From contig JARGPH010000003.1 of assembly GCA_029213065.1 (NCBI GenBank), positions 104,590 to 145,345 on the forward strand: 40,756 nt of DNA, in the 5' to 3' direction. The notes beneath the pieces were generated by a model. It ran no database searches and was not told the DNA's origin. It saw nothing but the letters and a program-made list of their open reading frames with translations. This document shows, piece after piece, positions 5,179 to 39,050 of the stretch. The stretch's first letter is position 1. Each line of letters begins with the position of its first letter. Source of the stretch: Verrucomicrobiales bacterium (lineage in GTDB: Bacteria > Verrucomicrobiota > Verrucomicrobiia > Verrucomicrobiales > DEV007). The position numbers were made by a program, and so were the translations under genes.

Positions 5179-8100
5179 TTAAGCTGTCAAAGCGACCCCG
5201 TCGAGAACGGCCCGGACTTCGGCGAGGAGGTGTTCGGGCAGGTAGGGTTTTCCGATGAACGAGACGTCTTCAGGAAATACCGCGTTACCCCGGAAGATTT
5301 CGGCGGTGTATCCGCTGGAGTAGATCACCTTCAGTGATGGTTTTTCCGCCTGGAGTCGAACTGAGAGCTCGTGTCCCGACATGCCTTCCGGCATCACGAT
5401 ATCGGTGAGGAGGAGGTCAACATTGGCTCCGAACTGTTCCCATACCCCGAGCGCCTGTTGGCCGCTGTGGGCCTCAATGACATGATAGCCGTGCTTGGTG
5501 AGAATCTTCTTTGCGACGAGACGCAGACCGTCTTCATCCTCGACGAGGAGAATCGTTTCTCCGCCGCGACTGGCGGGGCGTGTCTTGTCGGCAGGCTCCA
5601 GCACCTGAAGGGGGGAATCGGGAGCAACGTTGGTGATCGGGAGCCAGACGGTGAATATGGTTCCTTTACCCACCTTGCTGTCGACGTCGAGCCAACCGTT
5701 GTGTTGATCCATAATACCGAACACGGTGGCGAGCCCCAGCCCGGTTCCTTTACCGACCTCTTTCGTGGTGAAAAACGGTTCAAAAATGTGAGGAAGGTCT
5801 TCTGCAGGAATTCCTTTTCCCGTGTCTTTGATGTCGATGCGGACAAACTCGCCGGGTTCGAGTGAACGGGGGAGCGCTTCCGAGTTTCTCTGCAGTTCGA
5901 CGACACTGGTTTTAATCGTTAAGAGGCCTCCGTCCGGCATGGCATCTCGACCGTTCACGGCGAGATTCAGGATAACCTGTTCCAGCATTCCTTTGTCGGC
6001 CCGAATGAAAGTAGGCTCCGGGCAAAGCTCGGTTCGGAGTTGGATGTCTTCCCCGATGAGGCGGGTCAACATGCTGATGACACTTTCCGTGCTTTCGTTG
6101 ACCTGGAGGGTTTTAAACTGGATTGCCTGCTGGCGGCTGAAAGCGAGAAGCTGGCCGGTGAGACTGGCTGCGCGTTCGCTTGCGTTGGTGATCTCAGTGA
6201 CGGCATGAAGGCATTGTGAGCTGTTGTTGCTCCCGTTTGAGCCTTTGACGTGCTCGTCCCATTCGTCTTTTACAATGCTCGCATTCCCTTGAATGACGGT
6301 GAGAAGATTGTTGAAGTCGTGAGCGACACCTCCGGCGAGTTGACCGATTGCCTCCATCTTCTGCGACTGGCGCAGTTTTTCCTCCAATCGATGATGCTCA
6401 GTGACATCGCGGACAAAGAAATTGAAGGCGACCTGGTGACCTTCCGGAAGGATTGAGAGCGAGATCTCAGCAGGGAAGCTCGACCCGTCGGAACGAAAGG
6501 CGTCCATCTCAAATCGAAGTTCGTTTGATTCCTCTTTATCGGCATCAAAGAAGTCGTCCAGTTGCGGAAACATCTTCTTCACGGGAGCGCCTATCGCTTC
6601 GTTCTCCGGGTATCCGAAGACATCGACTGACTGGCAGTTCCAATGCACGACTTCACCTTTCGAATTCACTCCGATGACGGCGTCGAGTGCGCTGTCGAGA
6701 AGAAGCTGATTGAGTTCGGCCGTTTGCTGCAGAACTTCCGCGGAGCGTTTTCGCTCGCTGATATCAAACTCGAAGACGGTCACGCCGGCGATTTGTTTGT
6801 CCTGTGAGATTGAGTGGAACGAGGCTTCGTGGACTTGTCGCCCCGTAGGATCGGGAACTGTAAACTCCGCGGTGAACCGGTCACCCTGGAGGGCTCTCTC
6901 AAAATAGAGCTCCCACTGACGCCGTTCATGTTCCTCGAAGAAATCAAAGACAGAATCCCCCTCGGCGATTGTCTTTCCGGTGCGGCGCCAGAGAGCCTGG
7001 CGGAACTGGGTGTTGGAGCTGATAAGAATACCCTCCCGATCCACAGACCAAATCAAACCACGGGTGTGTTCAACGAGTGAGGAAAGGCTGCTACGCGACG
7101 TTTCGAGATCAAAGGCGACTGCCTTCTGCTCGGTAATATCGATTCCCTCGGCGACGATAAACTCCAGCGAGTTGTCCGCCCGGGAAACCGGCCTGAGAGA
7201 AAAGTCCAGGGTTCGAACCTTCCCTTCGGAGGTTGTTAGATCTGTCTCAAGGCGGATCCCTTTACCTCCGTTTTGAATGCGTTCGATGCCTTTCGAAATT
7301 TCACTCGAGGCGACCGAGGATGTCTCCCAAAGAGGCGTGTCTGAGAAGTCGACACCGAGAACCTCTGAGCGGTTTACTCCGGTGAATTCAATCGCCCGCC
7401 GGTTCAATTCCACCAACCGGCCATCGTTTGAAAGGAGGGCGAGGACATTGTTCGAATTGTTGAGGATCGCATGAAGCTTCCGTTCGCCCCTGAGCATTGC
7501 CTCGGTTCGTTGGTCGACCTTTCGGCGAAGGAGGATGTTCCAGAAGAGAACCATGAGTCCCGAACCTGCGATACAGGCGAGTGTAAAGATCCATTGCTGA
7601 AGGCTGTAGGAATGAGCGTCGGGATCGTAGATGAAATCATCAAGCCAATCTTCATTCTTCGGCGCTTCTGCTATTCCGGCTCCTGCAAACGTGTCGGCTA
7701 TCTGCGACCAGCGCCCCGGGTTCATGTGCCCGATTTCGACGAGGTCCGGCAAGATCAGGTTTTGCATTTCTGCTGCTTCGAATTCGAGATTTGCCCGCTC
7801 AATACCCCGTTCGCGGACCCCGGGAAGGGTGAGAATGTGGTCGATTATCTCATCGGGGTTTTGCATTGCGTACTTCCATCCGCGGGAAGTCGCTCGAATC
7901 ATTGCCTCGACCTCTGATTTGCGATTTTTGATCATCGCTTCGGTTGTGAACAGAGTGTCACCGTAAAAATCGACGCCGTAGTCGGATATTCTAAGGACAG
8001 TGGGCTTAATTCCGCGGGCCTCGAGTTGGAACGGTTCCGCCGTCGTGTAGCCGGTCATTACGTCCACTTTCCCTGAGATGAGATCGTCAAGCTGCCATGA

Positions 8101-8625
8101 ATGGGGAACGAAGTTGATCCGGTCTTTAGGCAATCCTTCCCGTTTCAGCAAGGCGTGCATTTGAGCCGCGCCCTGATCTCCTGACAGCATCATCGTTCTA
8201 TCAATCAAGTCCGAAGGACGGGAGATGGGTGAATCCCCGGTGCTGATCAGCGCGTAGGGGGAGTGCTGAAAGACCGCAAGACAGGCCACAACGGGTTTGT
8301 CATTCATTCTTGCGAGCAACAAATCTCCAGCCGAAACCCCGAAATCAGCACGCCCCGCGAGAACACTGTTCAAGGGGGGCTTTTCAGGGGTACTTTCGAA
8401 AATCTCAACTTCAAGGCCTTCCTCAGCAAAGAAGCCTTGAATCTCCGCCGCATAGTAGCCGGCGAACTGAAACTGGTGCCTCCACTTCAACTGAAGGGAT
8501 ACCTGACTTTTGTCTGTACTGTCAGCGAAAGAGAATTGTCCGAAAAGAGATAAGAGCACAACACTTAGCGTGTTGTGCAGGAAGCCTCGCGGGGAGAGAG
8601 GGAAGCTGTAGTTTGGCACCGACAT
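5179..8625 (-). CDS. Hybrid histidine kinase with periplasmic NMT1/THI5 binding domain and three PAS domains
   Basis: An 1148-residue one-piece sensor. The order is: signal anchor (about 15-34); an NMT1/THI5/SsuA-like solute-binding domain (42-320, opening VSLQLKWRHQFQFAGYYAA); a membrane helix (344-366); PAS domains at about 383-500, 510-628 and 638-745; HisKA with phosphoacceptor His769 in AHDFNNLL; an HATPase (875-995, with DTGKGIP and GKGTGLGLA); and a receiver (1024-1145) with EDED, Asp1075 and Lys1126. The binding-domain family recognises pyrimidine precursors of thiamine and sulfonates, so the kinase probably senses a small nitrogen heterocycle or similar solute. The ligand is not known. 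All core kinase and receiver residues are present. No response regulator gene is adjacent, so output must go through another protein. Confidence 0.93.
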   Translation of the reverse strand: MSVPNYSFPLSPRGFLHNTLSVVLLSLFGQFSFADSTDKSQVSLQLKWRHQFQFAGYYAAEIQGFFAEEGLEVEIFESTPEKPPLNSVLAGRADFGVSAGDLLLARMNDKPVVACLAVFQHSPYALISTGDSPISRPSDLIDRTMMLSGDQGAAQMHALLKREGLPKDRINFVPHSWQLDDLISGKVDVMTGYTTAEPFQLEARGIKPTVLRISDYGVDFYGDTLFTTEAMIKNRKSEVEAMIRATSRGWKYAMQNPDEIIDHILTLPGVRERGIERANLEFEAAEMQNLILPDLVEIGHMNPGRWSQIADTFAGAGIAEAPKNEDWLDDFIYDPDAHSYSLQQWIFTLACIAGSGLMVLFWNILLRRKVDQRTEAMLRGERKLHAILNNSNNVLALLSNDGRLVELNRRAIEFTGVNRSEVLGVDFSDTPLWETSSVASSEISKGIERIQNGGKGIRLETDLTTSEGKVRTLDFSLRPVSRADNSLEFIVAEGIDITEQKAVAFDLETSRSSLSSLVEHTRGLIWSVDREGILISSNTQFRQALWRRTGKTIAEGDSVFDFFEEHERRQWELYFERALQGDRFTAEFTVPDPTGRQVHEASFHSISQDKQIAGVTVFEFDISERKRSAEVLQQTAELNQLLLDSALDAVIGVNSKGEVVHWNCQSVDVFGYPENEAIGAPVKKMFPQLDDFFDADKEESNELRFEMDAFRSDGSSFPAEISLSILPEGHQVAFNFFVRDVTEHHRLEEKLRQSQKMEAIGQLAGGVAHDFNNLLTVIQGNASIVKDEWDEHVKGSNGSNNSSQCLHAVTEITNASERAASLTGQLLAFSRQQAIQFKTLQVNESTESVISMLTRLIGEDIQLRTELCPEPTFIRADKGMLEQVILNLAVNGRDAMPDGGLLTIKTSVVELQRNSEALPRSLEPGEFVRIDIKDTGKGIPAEDLPHIFEPFFTTKEVGKGTGLGLATVFGIMDQHNGWLDVDSKVGKGTIFTVWLPITNVAPDSPLQVLEPADKTRPASRGGETILLVEDEDGLRLVAKKILTKHGYHVIEAHSGQQALGVWEQFGANVDLLLTDIVMPEGMSGHELSVRLQAEKPSLKVIYSSGYTAEIFRGNAVFPEDVSFIGKPYLPEHLLAEVRAVLDGVALTA

Positions 8626-8641
8626 GGGGAAGAATAAATCA

Positions 8642-8660
8642 TAGATTTATCATAAATCTA
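8642..8660. promoter_or_regulatory. Perfect 9-bp-arm palindrome upstream of the NMT1-type kinase
   Basis: TAGATTTAT-C-ATAAATCTA is perfectly symmetric with a one-base centre and ends 16 bp before the kinase ATG at 8625, in an AT-rich 239-bp intergenic region shared with the divergent GAF kinase. The position suits a repressor operator in the 5' untranslated or promoter region. AT-rich palindromes also arise by chance, and the factor is unknown. Confidence 0.45.
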
Positions 8661-8864
8661 ACTTTTATTGAAAATATGAAATATTTTGTAATATTGAGTA
8701 AGCGTTCGTGATCTCTCAGGAGAGGCGGTTCACTGGTGAGACGGGAAAAACGCTCTCCTGAAACCGAGTGAATCTTCATTGTGAATAATTCTAAATTTTA
8801 TGGTAATTTTATCTTCATGATGAATATTGGGTGGTTTAGACGTGGTTTCTCAGGCTGAATTTTC

Positions 8865-30144: not shown

Positions 30145-31911
30145 TCAATGTGGCGTCAGCTTCAAAACCCGGTCCTCGTCGAGATTGGGTGGGAGAAGGT
30201 GGGTGATGATGATGATCCCGGTTCCTTTGGCCCGCTCCTGTTTCATCGCTTTGATCACCAGTTCGATCGATTCCGGATCGAGCGCGGCAAAGGGTTCGTC
30301 CATGAGCAGGAAGGGGCGCCCGCAGACCAATGCACGACAGAGTGCGAGGCGATACTGTTGTCCCACACTGAGGTTGCGTCCGCGGTCACTGAGTAGATGA
30401 TCGATACCTCCGCGTCCTTCGATCGTTTTCGTAAGTCCGACCTCGTTGATGGCAGCATGGATCTCCTCATCGCTGATCGATTCGGATCCCAGGGCGATGT
30501 TGTCCCGAATCGTTCCCACGAACAGATAAGGCTGTTGCTCCACAAAAGCGGAGAGGAAGGTGGGCGCCTGCGGGTAGGAGGTTGTGCGGCCGTCTTTCAA
30601 GGTTACCTCGAAAGACCCTTTGCCGGGAACGCGGAGCCCGGAAAAGGATTCCACGATCGTTGATTTGCCGCAACCAGATGGCCCCATCACCGCGAGGATT
30701 TCGCCGCGGCTGAGAGTGAGTTCCCCGTTTTTAATCACGGGCGGGGCGTCTCCGTAGGCGATGCGAATACCCTGACCGCTCATGGACTGCACTTCGCTCA
30801 CCTCTGAGGAAAGGGTGCCGAAGAGTTCCTCGTGATTGCGCTCTTTTTTGCTGTCGTCATAGAGGAGGGAAGCGAGCCTTCCACCTTCGATGAAGAAGCG
30901 GTTCCAATCGTAGGCGGATCCAACGAGTGATTTTGCAGCCCCGAGAAAAAGGCCAATGTAGAAGGGGTAGACGAGGGCGTCGGTGGCGGTGAGTTCGCCC
31001 CCGCGAACCTGGTAGGCGACGAGAGTAAGAACTCCGGTGATGATGACCTGGCCGACGAATTCATTCACTCCCATGAGCAGCGCCATCGACTTCGTAATTT
31101 TCATTCCTGCATCGAAGAGATCTTTGAGCTGGGCCTCAATCCGCTGGAAGGTGAACCTCTCGCCGCCGTAGCTGCGGATCGTGCGAAGCCCTTCGAAGGT
31201 CTCGATCATGGATTGAAAGACGCCGCCTTCCATCATGCGGGCACGTCCGAGAGTGGGAGCCATTCTCCGCTGCACGCCAATGTTGATCCAACCGAGAAAA
31301 AGTGCCGCCACGAGGGGGATGAAGGCGATCGGTCCGCTGTAGTAAAAGAAGAGTGCGGCGGAGCCCACCAACATGGTGGCATTGGTAATCTGATCGGGGA
31401 GGGAACGGGTCAAAAACTCCTCTGCATTGTAAAGGTCGCCTGTCATCCGCGTCATCCAGTCTCCGCGTTGCGCGGAGTCGAGTTGATCAATTCGGGTCCG
31501 GCTGAGGCCTGCGACCGCGTCCTTTTTCAAACCGATGCTGACGGTGAGTCTGAGCCATTCGCTGAGGATGCTGTCGATCACGAGGGCGATCCACTGGCAG
31601 ATCGCGACGGCAATCCCAAACAGGACTAACATTCTAACAAAATTATCTGCCGGAGTCTCGGCGAGACGCTGTGTGCCTTCGGTGAAGAACTGCAGGAAAC
31701 GTTGTGGGAGAAGGTGGATCGTTGAGAGAAGAATCGCCGCCGGAATCCAGAGTTTGTATTTCCAACCCAGCTTTCCGGTGATCTCCCGAATCAGTTTGAA
31801 GCAGTACCCGCGCATCTCTCGCGGATCGAGATCGAAGTCGCCCGGAGGCCCCGGTTTGGCCCCGCCGGGAGCGAGTTCCTCGTTTTCTGTTTCGGGTGAT
31901 TCGGACGTCAT
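30145..31911 (-). CDS. ABC exporter, fused membrane and ATPase domains, probable RiPP exporter
   Basis: A 588-residue half-transporter. An acidic/Pro-rich N-terminus (1-30) and five or six membrane helices (about 52-340) precede an ATPase with Walker A GPSGCGKST (410-418), signature LSVGQ (514-518, in place of LSGGQ), Walker B LLMDEP with Glu539 and H-loop His571. There is no C39 peptidase domain, so it would export an already cleaved product. It is divergent from the radical SAM/precursor genes with a 187-bp shared upstream region, which is the reason to link it to that cluster. A general lipid or drug exporter is the alternative. Confidence 0.88.
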   Translation of the reverse strand: MTSESPETENEELAPGGAKPGPPGDFDLDPREMRGYCFKLIREITGKLGWKYKLWIPAAILLSTIHLLPQRFLQFFTEGTQRLAETPADNFVRMLVLFGIAVAICQWIALVIDSILSEWLRLTVSIGLKKDAVAGLSRTRIDQLDSAQRGDWMTRMTGDLYNAEEFLTRSLPDQITNATMLVGSAALFFYYSGPIAFIPLVAALFLGWINIGVQRRMAPTLGRARMMEGGVFQSMIETFEGLRTIRSYGGERFTFQRIEAQLKDLFDAGMKITKSMALLMGVNEFVGQVIITGVLTLVAYQVRGGELTATDALVYPFYIGLFLGAAKSLVGSAYDWNRFFIEGGRLASLLYDDSKKERNHEELFGTLSSEVSEVQSMSGQGIRIAYGDAPPVIKNGELTLSRGEILAVMGPSGCGKSTIVESFSGLRVPGKGSFEVTLKDGRTTSYPQAPTFLSAFVEQQPYLFVGTIRDNIALGSESISDEEIHAAINEVGLTKTIEGRGGIDHLLSDRGRNLSVGQQYRLALCRALVCGRPFLLMDEPFAALDPESIELVIKAMKQERAKGTGIIIITHLLPPNLDEDRVLKLTPH

Positions 31912-32098
31912 GGCTGGAGTGGTTTCCGGGAAAAAATGCGGGGTTGGCTGAATTGCTTTTGCATAAGTGGGACGATCACCGCGTCAACTTCATGAGCCTG
32001 AAACGCTCCGTTTCTATAAACAAGCCAATTCAGGTTTCAATCAGTTCCAGTGGGAGCTGCATTTTTACAATCCCTTCAATTTCCACCAACGAGAATAA

Positions 32099-32260
32099 AT
32101 GAATACCCCTTCCTTAACTGATCGCATTCGCAAAGTTCGTCTCGGTGCCCGGGCACAGCAGCCACTCAAATACCGGATCGAATTGGTTCGTTCACGGAGC
32201 AAAAAATCCGGCAACGGAGACGCTCTTAAAATGCAGGGAACGTTCGAGCACTCCAACTGA
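32099..32260 (+). CDS. Possible 53-residue basic peptide before the radical SAM gene
   Basis: ATG 32099 opens a frame of 53 residues ending at TGA 32260, 52 bp before the maturase start. The product is strongly basic, with Arg/Lys-rich RIRKVRLGARAQ and VRSRSKKSG, no Cys and one Met-rich turn near the end. It has no clear Shine-Dalgarno sequence and I recognise no family. It may be a small regulatory or chaperone-like peptide, a leader peptide that affects expression of the maturase, or not a gene at all. If it is not a gene, the 401 bp at 31912-32312 is the divergent promoter region of the cluster. Confidence 0.35.
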   Translation: MNTPSLTDRIRKVRLGARAQQPLKYRIELVRSRSKKSGNGDALKMQGTFEHSN

Positions 32261-32312
32261 AAAAGTTAAGAAAAATTTCATAGTCCCACCATTCACCCGT
32301 CACACAGATATC

Positions 32313-33587
32313 ATGACAACGACCCTCGAAGCTCCCGCTGCTGAACCTCAGAAAACGACCCGTTCGCTCTCTGAACTGAATCTAACCCCGCAGAATTCCG
32401 ACCGGATGGCGATGGGGCTTCTCGTGATTCAGCCGAGTCCATTTTGCAATATCAACTGCGACTATTGCTACCTTCCGAATCGCACGGACACCCGTCGCAT
32501 GGATCACGCAGTGCTCGAGCGGGTCATGGATAAGGTCTGGGACAGCGGACTTGTTGTTGCACCTTTCAGTTTGCTCTGGCACGCCGGTGAGCCTCTCGCC
32601 GTTCCAATCAAGTGGTATGAGAAAGCTTTCGAAATCATCGCCCGGTATCCCGAGGCTTCGAAGTATGTGATTCACTCGGTTCAGACAAACGGAACCCTCG
32701 TGAATGACAAATGGTGTGAGTTCCTCAACAAGCACGAGGTCGAAGTCGGGCTCAGTATCGACGGCCCGAGACACATTCACGATCACCACCGCAAGACGCG
32801 GAAGGGTGAGGGGACTTTCGATAAAGCGATGCGCGGAATGGAATGTCTCAAGAAGAACAATGTGCCTTTTGGTGTCGTCTCAGTGATATCGGATGTCTCC
32901 GTGGATCACCCCGATGAGATGTATGATTTCTACCGGGAGCACGGCATCACCGGGATCGGTTTTAACATTGAGGAAGTGGAAGGCGCCAACGAATCATCAT
33001 CGCTCAATGAGAATGGCGGGATTGAACGCATCCAGGCATTCCTTAAACAGTTTTACCTTCGTAACAAGGCGGATGGCTTTCCCCTGAACGTTCGTGAGTT
33101 TCAGATCGCGGAGCGCAACATCATGGAACCGGGATGGTGCTCCGACCCGAATGGGAAATACTACAATATGGAGTCCGATCCCTTCGGAATGATCAATGTG
33201 GATTGCTTCGGGAATTTCTCTTCCTTCTCACCTGAGCTGCTCGGTCAGCCGACTGAGAAATACGGCTCTTTCAATTTCGGAAACCTGCTCAGCGGTGGTC
33301 TTTTCGATGCGACTCTGAATGAGTCCTTCCAGAAAGTTCTCTCCGATATCGAGGCCGGTAATAAGAAGTGTGCCGAGACCTGTGCTTTCTACGACTATTG
33401 CGGAGGAAGCGCCCCCTCGAACAAGTATTACGAGAATGGGACCTTCGACTCCGCCGAGACCCATCAGTGCCGTTCGACGGTGCAGATTCCGATGCAAATT
33501 GTCCTCGAGGATCTCGAGGAGGACCTCGGAATCAATGATGAGGTTTCCCCGCTCATTGAACTACCGAAACCGGAACACGCGGCATAA
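32313..33587 (+). CDS. Radical SAM/SPASM peptide maturase, GrrM/OscB-like
   Basis: A 424-residue enzyme from ATG 32313. The radical SAM cluster motif is Cys45, Cys49 and Cys52 in PFCNINCDYCYLP. LLWHAGEPLAVP (87-98), QTNGTL (124-129) and SIDGPRHIHDHHR (148-160) match the GrrM/OscB branch. The SPASM region has Cys276, Cys298, Cys353, Cys357, Cys363 (CAETCAFYDYCGG) and Cys386, enough for auxiliary Fe-S clusters. That branch joins an aromatic ring to a residue two positions on, making cyclophanes in Gly-rich precursors. Its substrate here is most likely the peptide encoded 102 bp downstream. A frame extends upstream to 32145, but residues before MTTT look non-coding. Confidence 0.93.
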   Translation: MTTTLEAPAAEPQKTTRSLSELNLTPQNSDRMAMGLLVIQPSPFCNINCDYCYLPNRTDTRRMDHAVLERVMDKVWDSGLVVAPFSLLWHAGEPLAVPIKWYEKAFEIIARYPEASKYVIHSVQTNGTLVNDKWCEFLNKHEVEVGLSIDGPRHIHDHHRKTRKGEGTFDKAMRGMECLKKNNVPFGVVSVISDVSVDHPDEMYDFYREHGITGIGFNIEEVEGANESSSLNENGGIERIQAFLKQFYLRNKADGFPLNVREFQIAERNIMEPGWCSDPNGKYYNMESDPFGMINVDCFGNFSSFSPELLGQPTEKYGSFNFGNLLSGGLFDATLNESFQKVLSDIEAGNKKCAETCAFYDYCGGSAPSNKYYENGTFDSAETHQCRSTVQIPMQIVLEDLEEDLGINDEVSPLIELPKPEHAA

Positions 33588-33689
33588 GACTTTGCTGGCT
33601 CATGTCAACAAACCCTTTCATCTTCGGATTAGGATTTCCTGACGAGCCATCAACTAACAAAACAAAAAACCAAAACCAAGGATAATAAA

Positions 33690-34031
33690 ATGGCTATACT
33701 AAGAAGTAGTGACGGAAAGTTCTACGAAGTTGCGGATGAAGAGCTTGAGAACAAGCTCATCCCGGCTGAAGAGATCAAAGAGAAACTCGGAAACGTGGGC
33801 GTTGGCCCTGCACAGGGACCTGTTGGCCCCGGACCTGACATGGTCGTCCCCGGAACCGGTGGACAGGTTGTGATTCAGATCCACACCGGCCAGGGCGGTG
33901 GCTACGGCCCCGGACCTGAAGGTCCTCCACCGGAAGAAGGTGATGTCGAAGCACATGGATGGTGCTGGCGTCACAACCACTTCTGCAACCACTGGCGTCG
34001 CAACTGCTGGCGCAACCACTGCCACCACTGA
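33690..34031 (+). CDS. RiPP precursor-like peptide with Trp/Cys/His/Asn/Arg tail
   Basis: A 113-residue peptide with the best ribosome-binding site of the cluster (AAGGA at 33678-33682, seven bases before ATG). Residues 1-33 form a charged leader (RSSDGKFYEVADEELE, then IPAEEIKEKL). Residues 34-82 are Gly/Pro-rich. Residues 91-113 consist only of Trp (91, 93, 102, 107), Cys (92, 99, 106, 111), His, Asn, Arg and one Phe (98). Cys92, Cys99 and Cys106 are seven apart. F98-C99-N100 and W107-R108-N109 fit the aromatic-X-Asn pattern that cyclophane maturases accept, and the Cys are possible targets of the MNIO enzyme. No signal peptide is seen. His/Cys density also suggests metal binding. Confidence 0.88.
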   Translation: MAILRSSDGKFYEVADEELENKLIPAEEIKEKLGNVGVGPAQGPVGPGPDMVVPGTGGQVVIQIHTGQGGGYGPGPEGPPPEEGDVEAHGWCWRHNHFCNHWRRNCWRNHCHH

Positions 34032-34046
34032 TAGACAGTGATGGCG

Positions 34047-34064
34047 GCATCGGGAAACCGATGC
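34047..34064 (+). promoter_or_regulatory. GNRA-tetraloop hairpin 15 bases after the precursor stop
   Basis: GCATCGG and CCGATGC form a perfect 7-bp stem closed by a GAAA tetraloop. No T-run follows, so it is more likely an RNA 3'-end stabiliser or processing block than a terminator. It would raise precursor mRNA relative to the downstream enzymes. Confidence 0.6.
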
Positions 34065-34171
34065 AGCAACAACACCAAGGTAGTCCGGGCTTTCCAAATC
34101 GTTCATTCCAGCGCGATAAGGGAAGTCCGGATTTTCCCTTTAAAACCCTAGAACCGTTTTTCTTGTTTAAC

Positions 34172-34275
34172 CTTTTTCTTTTTCTTACTCTTGATCCTGC
34201 TCTTTTCAGTGTCCCCGGCCTGCTTGCGGATAGGCTTCGAACTGGATTAAGAAAAAGAGTAAGAAAAAGAAAAAG
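34172..34275 (+). repeat. 21-bp perfect inverted repeat with pyrimidine/purine arms
   Basis: The left arm (34172-34192) is C/T-only apart from one A. The right arm (34255-34275) is its exact reverse complement, with a 62-bp spacer. A transcript would form a long A-U-rich stem between the precursor and MNIO genes, 108 bp before the MNIO ATG. It may attenuate transcription, guide RNase cleavage, or be a remnant of a small mobile repeat. No protein is encoded in the spacer. Confidence 0.7.
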
Positions 34276-34383
34276 AATTCGGCCTCGATCTAACCCTCTT
34301 AAGTTACCGACCCAACCCTGTTTAGTCACTCCATAGCTTCATTCTCTCTACTTTCTACTCCCTCCTTTCTGCTCAGAAAAAAC

Positions 34384-35583
34384 ATGAATCACTCTCTCCA
34401 CGACAATCCCTACGGAGTCGGTCTTGCCTACCGGTTCAATGTTCATCACGAAGCGGTGCAGCATCGAAGTGAGATCGATCTTCTGGAGATTTCGACCGAG
34501 GACTATATCATCCGCGAACGTCGAACCTACAGTGATCCCGACGAACGTCTTCTCAAAGACGCTCTCGGAAAATTTCCCTGTGTTGCTCACGGGCTGAGCC
34601 TTTCAATCGGAACGGTTGGTACCCTCAATCAAACTTACCTCGATTCGACAAACCGCTTCATGGCGGAAAATGGCCTCAATGTTTTCAGCGAGCATCTCGC
34701 CTTCCACAGCGTCGACGGAAACGATCTTACGATGTTCCTTGCGATTCCGTTTGAGGAAGTCGCGGTGCAGTGGGTGAAGCAAAACTATTACGCGATTCGT
34801 CGTAAGCTCGGGAGACCTTTTGCTCTCGAGAATGTGACCTATTCATTTCCTGCTCCTCACAGTTCTCTGAGCGAGGCTGACTTTCTCCGGCGTATCTGCG
34901 AGGAAACCGATTGCACGCTGTTGCTCGACGTTACTAATGTCTTTAACAACGCGAAGAATCACAATTACGACCCCGTCGAATTCTTTGACCGCATCCCGAT
35001 GGACCGGGTTTCCCAGCTGCATCTCGCCGGAGGATTTCAAAGATCGGACGGGAGGTGGGAGGACAGCCATTCCGAACCGGTTATGGACGAAGTCTGGCCG
35101 CTCTTTGATGAGGCGGTGAAGCGGGCGGTAAATCTGAGGAATGTCATTCTCGAGCGCGACAGCAAGCTGAAACCTTTTGACTCGGTCATGGCCGATATTC
35201 GTAAAGCGCGTGAGATCTTCTACACCCACCGCTCGACTCTCGTTCCGGCGGTGGAAGCGATCGCATTCGATGGCCTCGGGGCGGAAGCGCCCGATCCGCT
35301 TGCTCCCGAGTTTGCGGGACTTCGAAGTTACCAACGCACCTTGATGGGGCGGATCGCGGATCCGGCGTTTCGTGCCGCGTTTTTAGCCAACGCACCGGAG
35401 GCGGTGAAGCGGTTCGATTTGACCGACCCTGAGTGGTTTCAAAAAATCATCGACTGTGACGGGGCGCTCGTTCATGAGTTCGAGGAAGCGTGGGATTACT
35501 TTCAAAAAGAGGACCGCGAGGTCGCCGAAGAATACGAAAAGCGCGAATGGGCCGCCTGGGCGAATCAACTCGGTGGATGGTGA
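34384..35583 (+). CDS. DUF692/MNIO multinuclear iron oxidase with C-terminal helical extension
   Basis: A 399-residue enzyme. Residues 1-285 are a TIM-barrel of the MNIO (DUF692) family, related to MbnB, TglH and BufB. Likely iron ligands and active-site residues are His69 (VAHGLSLS), Glu103/His104 (SEHLAFH), Glu149/Asn150 (LENVT), Asp182/Asn185 (LDVTNVFNN), His213 (LHLAGG), Asp227/His229 (DSHSEP) and Glu257 (LERDSK). These enzymes oxidise peptide Cys and usually need a separate partner protein. Here about 110 extra residues (RSYQRTLMGRIADPAFR and following) may replace that partner. The Cys-rich peptide 352 bp upstream is the obvious substrate. A weak ribosome-binding site precedes ATG. Confidence 0.93.
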   Translation: MNHSLHDNPYGVGLAYRFNVHHEAVQHRSEIDLLEISTEDYIIRERRTYSDPDERLLKDALGKFPCVAHGLSLSIGTVGTLNQTYLDSTNRFMAENGLNVFSEHLAFHSVDGNDLTMFLAIPFEEVAVQWVKQNYYAIRRKLGRPFALENVTYSFPAPHSSLSEADFLRRICEETDCTLLLDVTNVFNNAKNHNYDPVEFFDRIPMDRVSQLHLAGGFQRSDGRWEDSHSEPVMDEVWPLFDEAVKRAVNLRNVILERDSKLKPFDSVMADIRKAREIFYTHRSTLVPAVEAIAFDGLGAEAPDPLAPEFAGLRSYQRTLMGRIADPAFRAAFLANAPEAVKRFDLTDPEWFQKIIDCDGALVHEFEEAWDYFQKEDREVAEEYEKREWAAWANQLGGW

Positions 35584-35638
35584 TGGCATCCGATTTCGAT
35601 GGTGCTCTTTGGATGATTCTATGATTAAGTGATTTCGC

Positions 35639-36370
35639 ATGCCTGACCTTGAGACAGCTTTAAAACGCATTCGCGACCACGGCGATTCCATGATCGAAGG
35701 TGCTGCCGATATGTTGCGCCGACTCGTCCGCGATACGGGCGATGCGATCGGTGCCGCGGAGGGTTCGATTCTGGTTCCGTCAGAGGACAGGACTCATTTG
35801 AAATTCCTCGTTTCTGTCAATCCGGCTCTCGACGGGTCGGATGTCACCGTGCCGGTTGGTGAATCGGTTAGTGGCTATGTTTTCAGTTCGCGTCAGGCCA
35901 TGGCAAAGGTGAACCCGGAGAGTGTCGGCCGGTCGCGGGTTGATAAAATAGCGAACAACCAAACGGAGTTTCTCCTCGCCGTTCCGATCATGGATGATGA
36001 CGGCGTCTACGGGGTTGCCACCTTTGTGAATCGAAAGCCCGACACGGAGTGGGTTCCCTTTTCGGTTGAGGAGTTGAGGCTCGGTCAAAGTTTCGGTGAG
36101 ATTTATGCGACGGCGCTGAAGCTGTATCGAAAAATTGAGTTCAGTGTCGCTGTCGCGGGCATTGAGATATCCGAGCACGCCTCTGAATTCGGTTTGGGAG
36201 AGATTTCGGGAAATGATTCAGGGAGTGCCCTTGCAAGAAAATACCGCGTCCCTGCGTTGATCGCTGAGAAGTCATTGGTCCTGCCCGAACGCGAAAGAGA
36301 GATTCTCTTGAAGATGTCTGACCTCCTCGGCGAGTATGCGGTAAGTCCATCCCTTGAAGATGAAATTTGA
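35639..36370 (+). CDS. GAF-domain protein in the RiPP cluster
   Basis: A 243-residue soluble protein starting 55 bp after the MNIO stop. A GAF domain spans about 25-165: an AIGAAEGSILVPSED start, VPVGESVSGYVFSSRQ in the middle, then FLLAVPIMDDDGVYGVATFVNR. The rest (165-243) is helical, with ERERE and LLKMSDLLGEY, and lacks a recognised output domain. GAF domains bind small ligands or cofactors. Here it may sense the product or a metal, or hold the protease. The last 11 bp overlap the protease gene, so the two proteins are made together and may act as a complex. No chromophore Cys motif is seen. Confidence 0.85.
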   Translation: MPDLETALKRIRDHGDSMIEGAADMLRRLVRDTGDAIGAAEGSILVPSEDRTHLKFLVSVNPALDGSDVTVPVGESVSGYVFSSRQAMAKVNPESVGRSRVDKIANNQTEFLLAVPIMDDDGVYGVATFVNRKPDTEWVPFSVEELRLGQSFGEIYATALKLYRKIEFSVAVAGIEISEHASEFGLGEISGNDSGSALARKYRVPALIAEKSLVLPEREREILLKMSDLLGEYAVSPSLEDEI

Positions 36371-37115
36371 CGAAGTAGTCAATCATGAGAAGCTTCGCGA
36401 ATGTCTTGCCTCGGGAACGGGAAAAGGGGTTTCGATTGGCATTCTCGATTCAGGTGTTGCCTCTGATCTCCCCGCGCTGGGAGGAAAGGTGGTCTCCAAT
36501 TGCGAGGTGGTGGAAAGTCGCCAGCGCATGGCTCATGTCGTTCCGCTTCCGGTGGGCGAGGATGTGATTCAACACGGGACGGCGTGTGCCTACATTATTC
36601 ACAAGCACGCTCCTGATGCTGAACTCCACAGCATTCGGGTGATTGGTCAGTCTCACAGTTCGACGTCACAGAAACTGCTCGCCGCTTTGAAATTCGCGGT
36701 TGAGCAGGGATGGGATATTTTGAATCTCAGTCTCGGGACCGAGGCCAACTATGAGCAGATCTCCCGCCTTGCTGATGAGGCCTACTACAAAGGGATGCTC
36801 TGGATTGCAGCAAAGGACAACAAACGGAACAAGGTCGGTTATCCGGCCGGTCTCGCTTCTGTCGTCGGCGTGGACATGGATTATTTTGAAGATCCCTCAG
36901 TGTTCCGGTTTCATTCCGGAAACGTCACTGAGATCGAGGCAGGTGGCGTCTACGTGGATGCGCCCACACCCGACGGAGGCTGGCAGCAGTTCACCGGAAC
37001 GAGCTTTGCCTGCCCGCAGATCACGGGAATTACAGCGCGGTTGCGCGAGCACTTTCCCGACCTCGCGCCGTATCAGTTGAAAGCCGCCCTGGCGGCGCTT
37101 CGCGAAAACAGGTGA
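36360..37115 (+). CDS. Subtilisin-like (S8) protease, cytoplasmic, RiPP-cluster
   Basis: A 251-residue compact subtilase from ATG 36360. A TTG six bases earlier is a weaker choice. The triad is Asp30 in IGILDSGV, His72 in QHGTACA and Ser215 in GTSFACPQ, with Asn154 in IAAKDN as the oxyanion residue. Signal peptide and propeptide are both absent, and it is shorter than secreted subtilases, so it should work in the cytoplasm. In RiPP clusters such proteases remove leaders or cut cores (PatA/PatG type). The likely cut site in the precursor is in or after the Gly/Pro-rich stretch (about 83-91). This is inferred. It overlaps the GAF gene by 11 bp. Confidence 0.92.
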   Translation: MKFDEVVNHEKLRECLASGTGKGVSIGILDSGVASDLPALGGKVVSNCEVVESRQRMAHVVPLPVGEDVIQHGTACAYIIHKHAPDAELHSIRVIGQSHSSTSQKLLAALKFAVEQGWDILNLSLGTEANYEQISRLADEAYYKGMLWIAAKDNKRNKVGYPAGLASVVGVDMDYFEDPSVFRFHSGNVTEIEAGGVYVDAPTPDGGWQQFTGTSFACPQITGITARLREHFPDLAPYQLKAALAALRENR

Positions 37116-37710: not shown

Positions 37711-38859
37711 CTACACTATTTCATCAAAACAGAGCGCTCCGCAAAGGGAGTGGTCGTGTCGGAAAACGGTTCCTCCGATCGGGCCGATTTCCTGATGGGT
37801 GAAAAATCCGGCAAGAGGAAATTCTCCGAGCTCGTCGCGGAAAGTGACGGCGTCCCGATCCGGTTCGCCATACAGTTGCACGCCGCGACTGCGGCCTCCG
37901 AAGAGTAACCCCGCAAAGGGCTCGCCGTGTTCTTCTTTCACTTTTCCGAGATGAAGGCGGAGATCGGCTTCGGCGATGGCCGGATCCCGCATCTGAAACT
38001 GGATTGTCTGGCCGGCCCGGGCGGGGCTGGAAAGTTTCAGCCGGCCGTCGGCGAGGTCTGCTCCGATGATCGGCCGAATCAGAAAATGTCCGGTTTCAAA
38101 ATTATCGACCGATTCGGTGGCTGCGATTCCTGCGAAAATGTTGCCGTCAGCCTGAATGCGATCACTCCAGTCGAGACGCTCGAAGGTTTCCTCGAGGACT
38201 GAGAATGCCTTTCTTCTCGCGATGGAAATCACTTCATTCTCGTCGACTTCGGTAACGACGAGAGGTTCTCCGATGGGTTTGCAGGACTGGCTGACGACGG
38301 GGATGATCCGGACCCCGCCGGTGAACGCAATCGAGAGCGAGGTTGATTTCAGTCTGCCGTTTTGGGTGAAGAGAAAGAGGTCTTCTTCGTCGGGACCTCC
38401 CGAAATGACGCCGCCAATGACGGGAACGCGATTGGCTTCAGTATTAAAGGATCTGAGGTCGGATTCAATCTTTGCCGGTGCCGCCTCTGCAGCTACGGGA
38501 TTGTAGAGGACGAGGTGACCTGCCGCCGCGATGTGGCTTTCGACATCTCCAGTGCTGATCGCAATCTGAGTTCGCGGGAGCGAAAGGAAAAGGAGGGAAA
38601 GTCCGCTCGCGTTTTCCGAGGTTCGCCCAACGCCGAAGTGGCCGCTTGCTGAGCCTCCGGCGATGCGAGTCGCATGCCCGTAGATTTGGAGGATTTCGAT
38701 GAGGTCGTCGAGGTGGTCTCCATAGTCCGAGCTGACCGCTGCTATGACCAGATCGGGATTGGCTTCCAGCTTTTCAAGGCAATCGGTAACGCCCTGGGTG
38801 ATGGTCGCTTCATCGAAGGGGGAGAGGATGAGGCAGGAGGCGGAAGCGTTTCGTTTCAT
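37711..38859 (-). CDS. FIST N/C-domain sensory protein
   Basis: A 382-residue protein from ATG 38859 (a longer frame reaches 38904). FIST_N spans about 15-190 (LILSPFDE, IAAVSSDYGDHLDDLIEIL, RIAGGSASGHFG) and FIST_C about 195-365 (GIAFTGG-like turns, then LLFGGRSRGVQLYGEPDRDAV). FIST proteins are thought to bind amino-acid-like ligands and are commonly linked to signalling, though this one has no kinase, GGDEF or receiver domain attached. It is divergent from the OmpH gene. Confidence 0.88.
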   Translation of the reverse strand: MKRNASASCLILSPFDEATITQGVTDCLEKLEANPDLVIAAVSSDYGDHLDDLIEILQIYGHATRIAGGSASGHFGVGRTSENASGLSLLFLSLPRTQIAISTGDVESHIAAAGHLVLYNPVAAEAAPAKIESDLRSFNTEANRVPVIGGVISGGPDEEDLFLFTQNGRLKSTSLSIAFTGGVRIIPVVSQSCKPIGEPLVVTEVDENEVISIARRKAFSVLEETFERLDWSDRIQADGNIFAGIAATESVDNFETGHFLIRPIIGADLADGRLKLSSPARAGQTIQFQMRDPAIAEADLRLHLGKVKEEHGEPFAGLLFGGRSRGVQLYGEPDRDAVTFRDELGEFPLAGFFTHQEIGPIGGTVFRHDHSLCGALCFDEIV

Positions 38860-39050
38860 AGGATTGGACCGGTTGAGCCGGGAAGGGCCGGGTGACGCAA
38901 GCAAGTGCGTATTGTCCGTTGATTTGACGTCCCGGAGTTGCTGGATATGCGCCGGATCCGGATATAGGGAATCCCGCAGGACCCTTAAAAAATCTGGACT
39001 TTCTGCCTCAATCTGGTCTAGGCTCTGCGACTCCTCGAAAATCGAGATTT

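Follow-up and report, generated by a model that had tools for sequence, protein, structure and literature searches.

A cluster of genes at positions 30145 to 37115 of a 40,756-nucleotide stretch of Verrucomicrobiales DNA (contig JARGPH010000003.1, positions 104,590 to 145,345; hereafter, the window) is a real, conserved cluster of the type that makes ribosomally synthesized and post-translationally modified peptides (RiPPs), and its composition is new. The gene for a 113-residue precursor peptide (33690 to 34031, +) is preceded by one for a radical S-adenosylmethionine (SAM) enzyme with a SPASM domain, of the GrrM/OscB subfamily (32313 to 33587, +), and followed by genes for a multinuclear nonheme iron-dependent oxidative enzyme (MNIO; 34384 to 35583, +), an accessory GAF-domain protein (35639 to 36370, +), and an S8 subtilase (36354 to 37115, +). 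A gene for an ABC exporter lies upstream on the opposite strand (30145 to 31911, −). The presence of these genes is certain: Pfam and NCBIfam searches of the window proteins confirmed, with family matches far above chance, the genes that an earlier sequence-only reading had placed there. That reading had also described the locus as a RiPP cluster with a radical SAM enzyme, an MNIO, and a precursor composed of leader, linker, and core, which is borne out by the family matches and the conservation described below. The conserved leader and core, the modifying enzymes, the protease, and the exporter are inherited together, with the co-inheritance of the protease confounded by lineage. Judging from the sequence comparisons, both modifying enzymes likely act on one core. 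The genome carries one GrrM homolog and two MNIOs.

The core gene set was found in 17 genomes and the precursor in 16. The radical SAM enzyme was detected at an E value of ≤1e-60 in 15 of the 56 genomes around the window, all 15 belonging to one genus represented by 33 genomes. The precursor was present in 14 of these 33 genomes, every one of which also encodes the radical SAM enzyme, and at two further loci (L045 and L048). The sequence-only reading had named a peptide lacking its enzymes as the observation that would speak against it; among the 14 peptide-bearing genomes of the genus, none lacks the radical SAM enzyme. The sole genus genome with the enzyme and without the precursor (G023) has the cluster split across two contig ends, with the radical SAM gene at the end of one contig and the MNIO and subtilase genes near the end of another. 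When the window proteins were compared by tblastn with loci L019 to L032, L045, and L048, the order radical SAM enzyme, precursor, MNIO was kept wherever the contig extends; the contig of L030 stops ∼540 bases above the radical SAM match, that of L031 before the precursor, and that of L028 inside the MNIO gene. Scanning genome contigs with the precursor alignment yielded 15 loci, all in metagenome-assembled genomes (11 Verrucomicrobiales, 2 Akkermansiaceae, 1 Verrucomicrobiia, and 1 Verrucomicrobia), of which two, L045 and L048, were new. From an even draw of 387 genomes across the phylum, which rare carriers may escape, the window's own genome was the only one to yield the MNIO (E ≤ 1e-45) or TIGR04261 (E ≤ 1e-60). 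Viral contigs held no precursor relative. Six plasmid records carried a GrrM homolog (37.7 to 38.9% identity) and 15 an MNIO; with plasmid gene tables incomplete, no annotated MNIO was present in the three GrrM neighborhoods read (of six), and no annotated GrrM in the one MNIO neighborhood read (H7, of 15).

The precursor open reading frame (ORF) has no match in Pfam or NCBIfam, and 14 precursors compared with NCBIfam at E values up to 5 matched no model, including those of Gly-rich-repeat (GrrA-like) peptides. It is regarded as a real gene because it is conserved in 16 genomes with a low ratio of nonsynonymous to synonymous divergence (pN/pS). The peptide consists of a leader (residues 1 to 34), a variable linker rich in Gly, Pro, and acidic residues that contains the stretch GQVVIQI, and a core from about residue 88. 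The proposed core, AHGWCWRHNHFCNHWRRNCWRNHCHH (residues 88 to 113; 33951 to 34028, +), follows a putative cleavage site; its 26 residues have an unmodified monoisotopic mass of 3489.48 Da. All 16 copies open with MAILRS[ST]DG[KR]FY and share the core consensus AHG[WY]CWR[RH]NxFxNxW[RQS]RNC[WF]RN, with G90 replaced by Asn once. Fourteen of the 22 tallied core columns are identical in 16/16 copies (A88, H89, C92, W93, R94, N96, F98, N100, W102, R104, N105, C106, R108, and N109); the Cys residues C92 and C106 are thus invariant, whereas the remaining Cys positions vary. The WRR shared by the other 15 copies is WRH in the window's core; the residues preceding AHG are [DEQ]-[VL]-[ET]. The median pN/pS of the 16 full-length copies was 0.16 in the leader, 0.32 in the middle, 0.60 in the linker, and 0.23 in the core, values that are rough given the high synonymous divergence (mean pS of 0.53 to 0.68); the copy in L022, interrupted by N, was excluded from these ratios and from the counts. 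By this measure, the leader and core are under purifying selection and the linker is variable. The sequence-only reading had proposed asking whether the core is alignable across genomes and the Gly/Pro linker variable; this proved to be the case, with linker variation extending to the loss of GQVVIQI in L048. One genome (G032, locus L029) bears two tandem precursor copies (7820 to 8170 and 8319 to 8666, −) that differ in their C-terminal Gly/Tyr tails.

The radical SAM enzyme matched Radical_SAM (E = 1.9e-17) and the GrrM/OscB model TIGR04261 (443.1 bits; cutoff, 310). The CxxxCxxC motif was present in 17/17 sources of the enzyme, and a stricter SPASM pattern matched 14 of them. The SPASM residues C353, C357, C363, and C386 were invariant in 19 aligned sequences, including GrrM proteins from Nostoc, Phaeobacter, and Streptomyces. 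The start of the gene, set at 32145 in the sequence-only reading, is likelier at 32313, where an ATG is aligned in the window and in 8 of 13 other loci. Frame stops occur in the matches of G025, G007, and G023, whose first aligned query residues (39, 3, and 41, respectively) all lie before residue 57, the proposed start; the proposed enzyme of G025 and G007 (L023 and L024) translates without a stop.

Enzymes of this kind are reported to join residue i to residue i+2, with Trp-Asn/Asp and Phe-Asn links for OscB and Trp-Arg/Asn links for XncB (PMC11002830). Four aromatic positions of the core (W93, F98, W102, and W/F107) are followed at i+2 by Arg or Asn in 15 of the 16 copies; in the window's core this holds for three of the four, His being the i+2 residue of W93. 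In L045 and L048, W107 is exchanged for Phe, so that an aromatic residue is retained. Short ORFs beside GrrM on one Nostoc and one Phaeobacter plasmid also carry W-x-N/D runs. Taken one sequence at a time, the i+2 pattern carries little weight, and the argument rests on its conservation across genomes and on the W-to-F exchange.

The MNIO matched PF05114 at 237.1 bits (E = 2.7e-70; gathering cutoff, 25). Its structural model (predicted local distance difference test [pLDDT] score of 84) gave TglH, 3bww, and MbnB as the best PDB matches (8hci, E = 4.4e-17; 3bww, target template modeling score of 0.87), consistent with the TIM-barrel fold of TglH and MbnB. The metal-ligand motifs H69-G, SEH104, E149-N, D182, H213, D227-S-H229, and E257-R-D were invariant in 15 sequences and align with 3bww or TglH. 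The protein continues into a helical C-terminal extension of ∼95 residues (about 306 to 399) that ends without a Cys-bearing core. The extensions of 13 of 15 homologs matched the NHLP-clan model NF038399 at E values up to 5 (best, 1.8e-7), that of the window scoring 22.3 bits, below the cutoff of 40, and none of the 15 plasmid MNIO matches covers the extension. Folded alone, it had a pLDDT of 69 and no PDB match at E ≤ 0.001, and no fold is assigned to it; the Pfam LigA matches of 4 of 15 extensions were weak (best E, 0.0046) and were not used. Most MNIO clusters are reported to include a DUF2063-type partner gene, and MovX, an apparently partner-independent MNIO, to have its own extra domain (PMC12452194). 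Among the 10 window proteins scanned, none matched Pfam models of DUF2063, Anthrone_oxyd, or an MbnC partner. Given the lack of a partner gene in the cluster and the precedent of MovX, we propose that the extension may serve as a built-in partner. At locus L033 (G000:C21, 6857 to 10744, −), the genome's second MNIO (371 bits) has sigma-70, thioredoxin, and DUF2063 neighbors and a Cys/Gly/Lys-rich ORF without a Pfam match, and the locus looks like an ordinary bufferin-type cluster.

The subtilase (PF00082, Peptidase_S8, E = 1.3e-24) is nearest to the NCBIfam model for QhpE, at 115.8 bits and below the cutoff of 165. In the window, it has the motifs LDSG, HGTA, and GTSFACP and no signal peptide evident by eye. 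An ortholog was assigned in all 15 genus genomes that encode the radical SAM enzyme, with an identity of at least 53% in 13 of them (partial in G012 and split over two contigs in G005) and by its position behind the MNIO gene in G008 and G023 (41 and 36% identity). Orthologs also occur in G430 (61%) and G431 (56%), away from the cluster. The 18 genus genomes without the radical SAM enzyme yielded matches of ≤36% identity and ≤122 bits, or none. The GAF-domain protein (PF01590, E = 7.4e-09) was found in 12 of the 15 positive and 0 of the 18 negative genomes, adjoining the subtilase in 12/12; it also stands beside the subtilase in G430 and was not found beside it in G431. In G004, G008, and G023, which have no GAF gene, the subtilase gene lies directly behind the MNIO gene; the GAF protein is dispensable. 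In G025, ∼11 kb separates the pair from the cluster, and G001, G032, and G430 carry it on contigs other than that of the cluster; the contigs of G012 end there. The GAF/subtilase pair as a fixed part of the cluster, as in the sequence-only reading, is not supported. QhpE is reported to cleave a cross-linked peptide ahead of export by the ABC protein QhpF (PMC7876137), and the S8 protease AmyP to use a (T/S/A)EVE motif (PMC10885120), which the residues before AHG resemble. A gene for a FIST-domain protein (window positions 37711 to 38904, −) adjoins the GAF-subtilase pair in many relatives. Some genomes have long ORFs (477 to 534 residues) that either separate the MNIO and GAF genes or neighbor GAF (L021, 5573 to 7006; L024, 9998 to 11476; L110, 8595 to 10199); these are similar by eye and have no Pfam match above the cutoff.

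The exporter combines membrane and ATPase domains in one protein (Pfam ABC_membrane, 2.4e-29; ABC_tran, 1.1e-22; both above the cutoff) and is transcribed divergently from the remaining cluster. No C39 or other peptidase was matched in it by Pfam at E ≤ 0.01. Its position and orientation are shared by L019 to L029, L031, L032, L045, and L048; it was not seen in L030, where the contig ends ∼540 bases above the radical SAM match. Between the exporter and radical SAM genes lies a basic 53-residue ORF (32099 to 32260, +), which the sequence-only inventory, correct in the genes it listed, had overlooked. The ORF is present in the window and in 12 of 13 other aligned loci, L048 being the exception (L028, L030, and L031 were excluded from this alignment). 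It has the pattern RI..VR....R....P...RI..VR, with RI..VR repeated; pN was lower than pS in 78/78 pairs over residues 1 to 33, and the tail is unconserved. A search found it in 11 of the 33 genus genomes, all with the radical SAM enzyme; it has no Pfam match. No clear regulatory motif was apparent between the two genes, the conserved block there being this ORF. In the gap between the precursor and MNIO genes, a 21-nucleotide perfect inverted repeat (34172 to 34275, +; arms 34172 to 34192 and 34255 to 34275) has an RNA fold z score of −3.0 and is possibly a processing or attenuation hairpin. A role in defense was set aside, as PADLOC gave generic matches only (ABC, viperin-like radical SAM, and subtilase).

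From the observed genes, motifs, conservation, and co-inheritance, we infer a chemistry, its order, a cleavage site, and a function. With moderate confidence, we favor a RiPP pathway in which the radical SAM enzyme forms cyclophanes, the MNIO oxidizes Cys, the subtilase cleaves, and the ABC protein exports a metal-binding product. The leader (approximately residues 1 to 34) would recruit the GrrM/OscB-type enzyme, which would join the ring of a core aromatic residue to the beta-carbon of the i+2 residue. The candidate pairs are W93-R/H95, F98-N100, W102-R104, and W/F107-N109, which would amount to at most four strained cyclophanes of three residues each. One or both invariant Cys residues (C92 and C106) would be oxidized by the MNIO, probably in a four-electron reaction, with its fused C-terminal helical domain probably replacing a separate partner; a loss of about 4 Da per Cys has been reported for FonA. 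The QhpE-like subtilase would then cut off the leader in the cytosol near [DEQ]-[VL]-[ET]|AHG, and the peptidase-less ABC protein would export the product, a His/Cys-rich basic peptide that most likely binds metal. The sequence-only reading had suggested a cyclophane-bridged, Cys-modified metallophore or an antimicrobial as candidate products. More tentatively, and on balance somewhat doubtfully, the cluster may define a new hybrid RiPP class in which several three-residue cyclophanes would stiffen a scaffold whose metal ligands are Cys heterocycles made by the MNIO, and in which a captured, leader-like domain of the NHLP type, serving as a built-in partner, would let the MNIO work alone.

Several observations weigh against this pathway and bear on its alternatives. 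At the fifth conserved aromatic position, W/Y91, the i+2 residue is Trp, at odds with the proposed pairs. Shuffled cores reach the observed i+2 count with a probability of 0.004 to 0.14 (0.13 for the window's core; 15 cores were shuffled, with L045 left out). N96 and N105, at i+3, equal R104 in invariance and exceed R95, which leaves room for a W-N link or for a different reaction. The MNIO falls under every NCBIfam equivalog cutoff among the matches listed (BufB, 188.8 bits against 310; HvfB, 202.1 against 360; MbnB, 34.1 against 325), and MNIOs are reported to modify Asn, Asp, and Phe as well; for these two reasons, Cys as the target is a guess. It is conceivable, though we think it unlikely, that the product is a triceptide on which the MNIO acts elsewhere than on Cys, either by cleaving N-C-alpha at one of the invariant Asn residues or by hydroxylating an aromatic residue, with the Cys residues serving as metal ligands or in disulfides. 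Asn96, Asn100, Asn105, and Asn109 are all invariant, an Asn-cleaving MNIO is known, MovX has its own extra domain, and PbsC reportedly hydroxylates Phe. However, C92 and C106 are kept though other Cys positions vary, and the nearest models, HvfB and BufB, represent families for which Cys modification has been reported or proposed. The fused domain, for its part, would be unnecessary if the DUF2063 protein encoded beside the genome's second MNIO served in trans. No metal gene was recognized among the neighbors scanned with Pfam.

The two enzymes could also be linked while one of them acts elsewhere, for example on the NHLP-like tail of the MNIO or on the product of the small ORF. The tail is weakly RiPP-leader-like, and the 53-residue ORF offers a second small conserved product; nevertheless, no Cys-bearing core is present at the end of that tail, and the precursor lies between both enzyme genes in every locus showing all three, which makes this division of labor very improbable. 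Co-occurrence with the radical SAM enzyme gave a Fisher P of 1.3e-6 for GAF and of 1.8e-8 for the subtilase (computed for 14/15 versus 0/18 at ≥40% identity), but the control gene FIST, found in 12/15 positive and 1/18 negative genomes (P = 1.4e-5), came close to the same pattern. Lineage thus explains much of the co-occurrence, which was set aside as proof of function. The GAF protein and the subtilase may then be chromosomal neighbors that do something unrelated, for example stress proteolysis, a housekeeping protease removing the leader. The distant location of the pair in the four genomes named above is in keeping with this, as is the presence of FIST in G430 and G431. Yet we judge it rather doubtful, as the subtilase stands directly behind the MNIO gene in the three genomes without GAF, which is better evidence than co-occurrence, and an ortholog exists in every genus genome with the radical SAM enzyme and in G430 and G431.

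The proposed pathway resembles several known systems in part. With the triceptides (OscB, XncB, and GrrM) it shares the curated radical SAM subfamily and the aromatic-x-Asn and Trp-x-Arg core motifs; in contrast, the precursor matches no Gly-rich-repeat model, the core is rich in Cys, His, and Arg, and an MNIO, a subtilase, and a fused ABC exporter are nearby. PF05114, a TglH/MbnB-like fold, and an adjacent precursor with conserved Cys are held in common with methanobactin, 3-thiaglutamate, and bufferin/captophorin clusters, from which it differs in an MNIO below the cutoffs, in the helical C-terminal extension, and in having no DUF2063 or MbnC gene in the cluster. Aminopyruvatide and biphenomycin-like pbs pathways are described as combining an MNIO with a radical SAM enzyme, and the pairing of MNIO with B12-radical SAM is thus already known; those enzymes are B12 dependent and reportedly methylate or join aromatics, whereas the enzyme here is a SPASM protein of a cyclophane subfamily. 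The qhp operon of quinohemoprotein amine dehydrogenase is likewise reported to proceed from radical SAM cross-linking through the QhpE subtilase to ABC export; here, the radical SAM subfamily is another one, the substrate is a short peptide instead of an enzyme subunit, and the subtilase is below the QhpE cutoff. Passages of PMC10456417 name DUF692 proteins and radical SAM sactipeptide clusters separately, without such a pairing. Among the matches listed, no paper pairs an MNIO with a GrrM/OscB-type enzyme, in agreement with the sequence-only description of the cluster as undescribed; primary triceptide papers, which lay outside this coverage, may include the family.

If both enzymes share one core, the cluster would be the first case, within the literature searched, in which a SPASM cyclophane synthase is paired with an MNIO. 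The conserved cassette allows the target residues of each enzyme and the order of their action to be tested, and the fused helical domain makes partner-free MNIO function testable by deletion.

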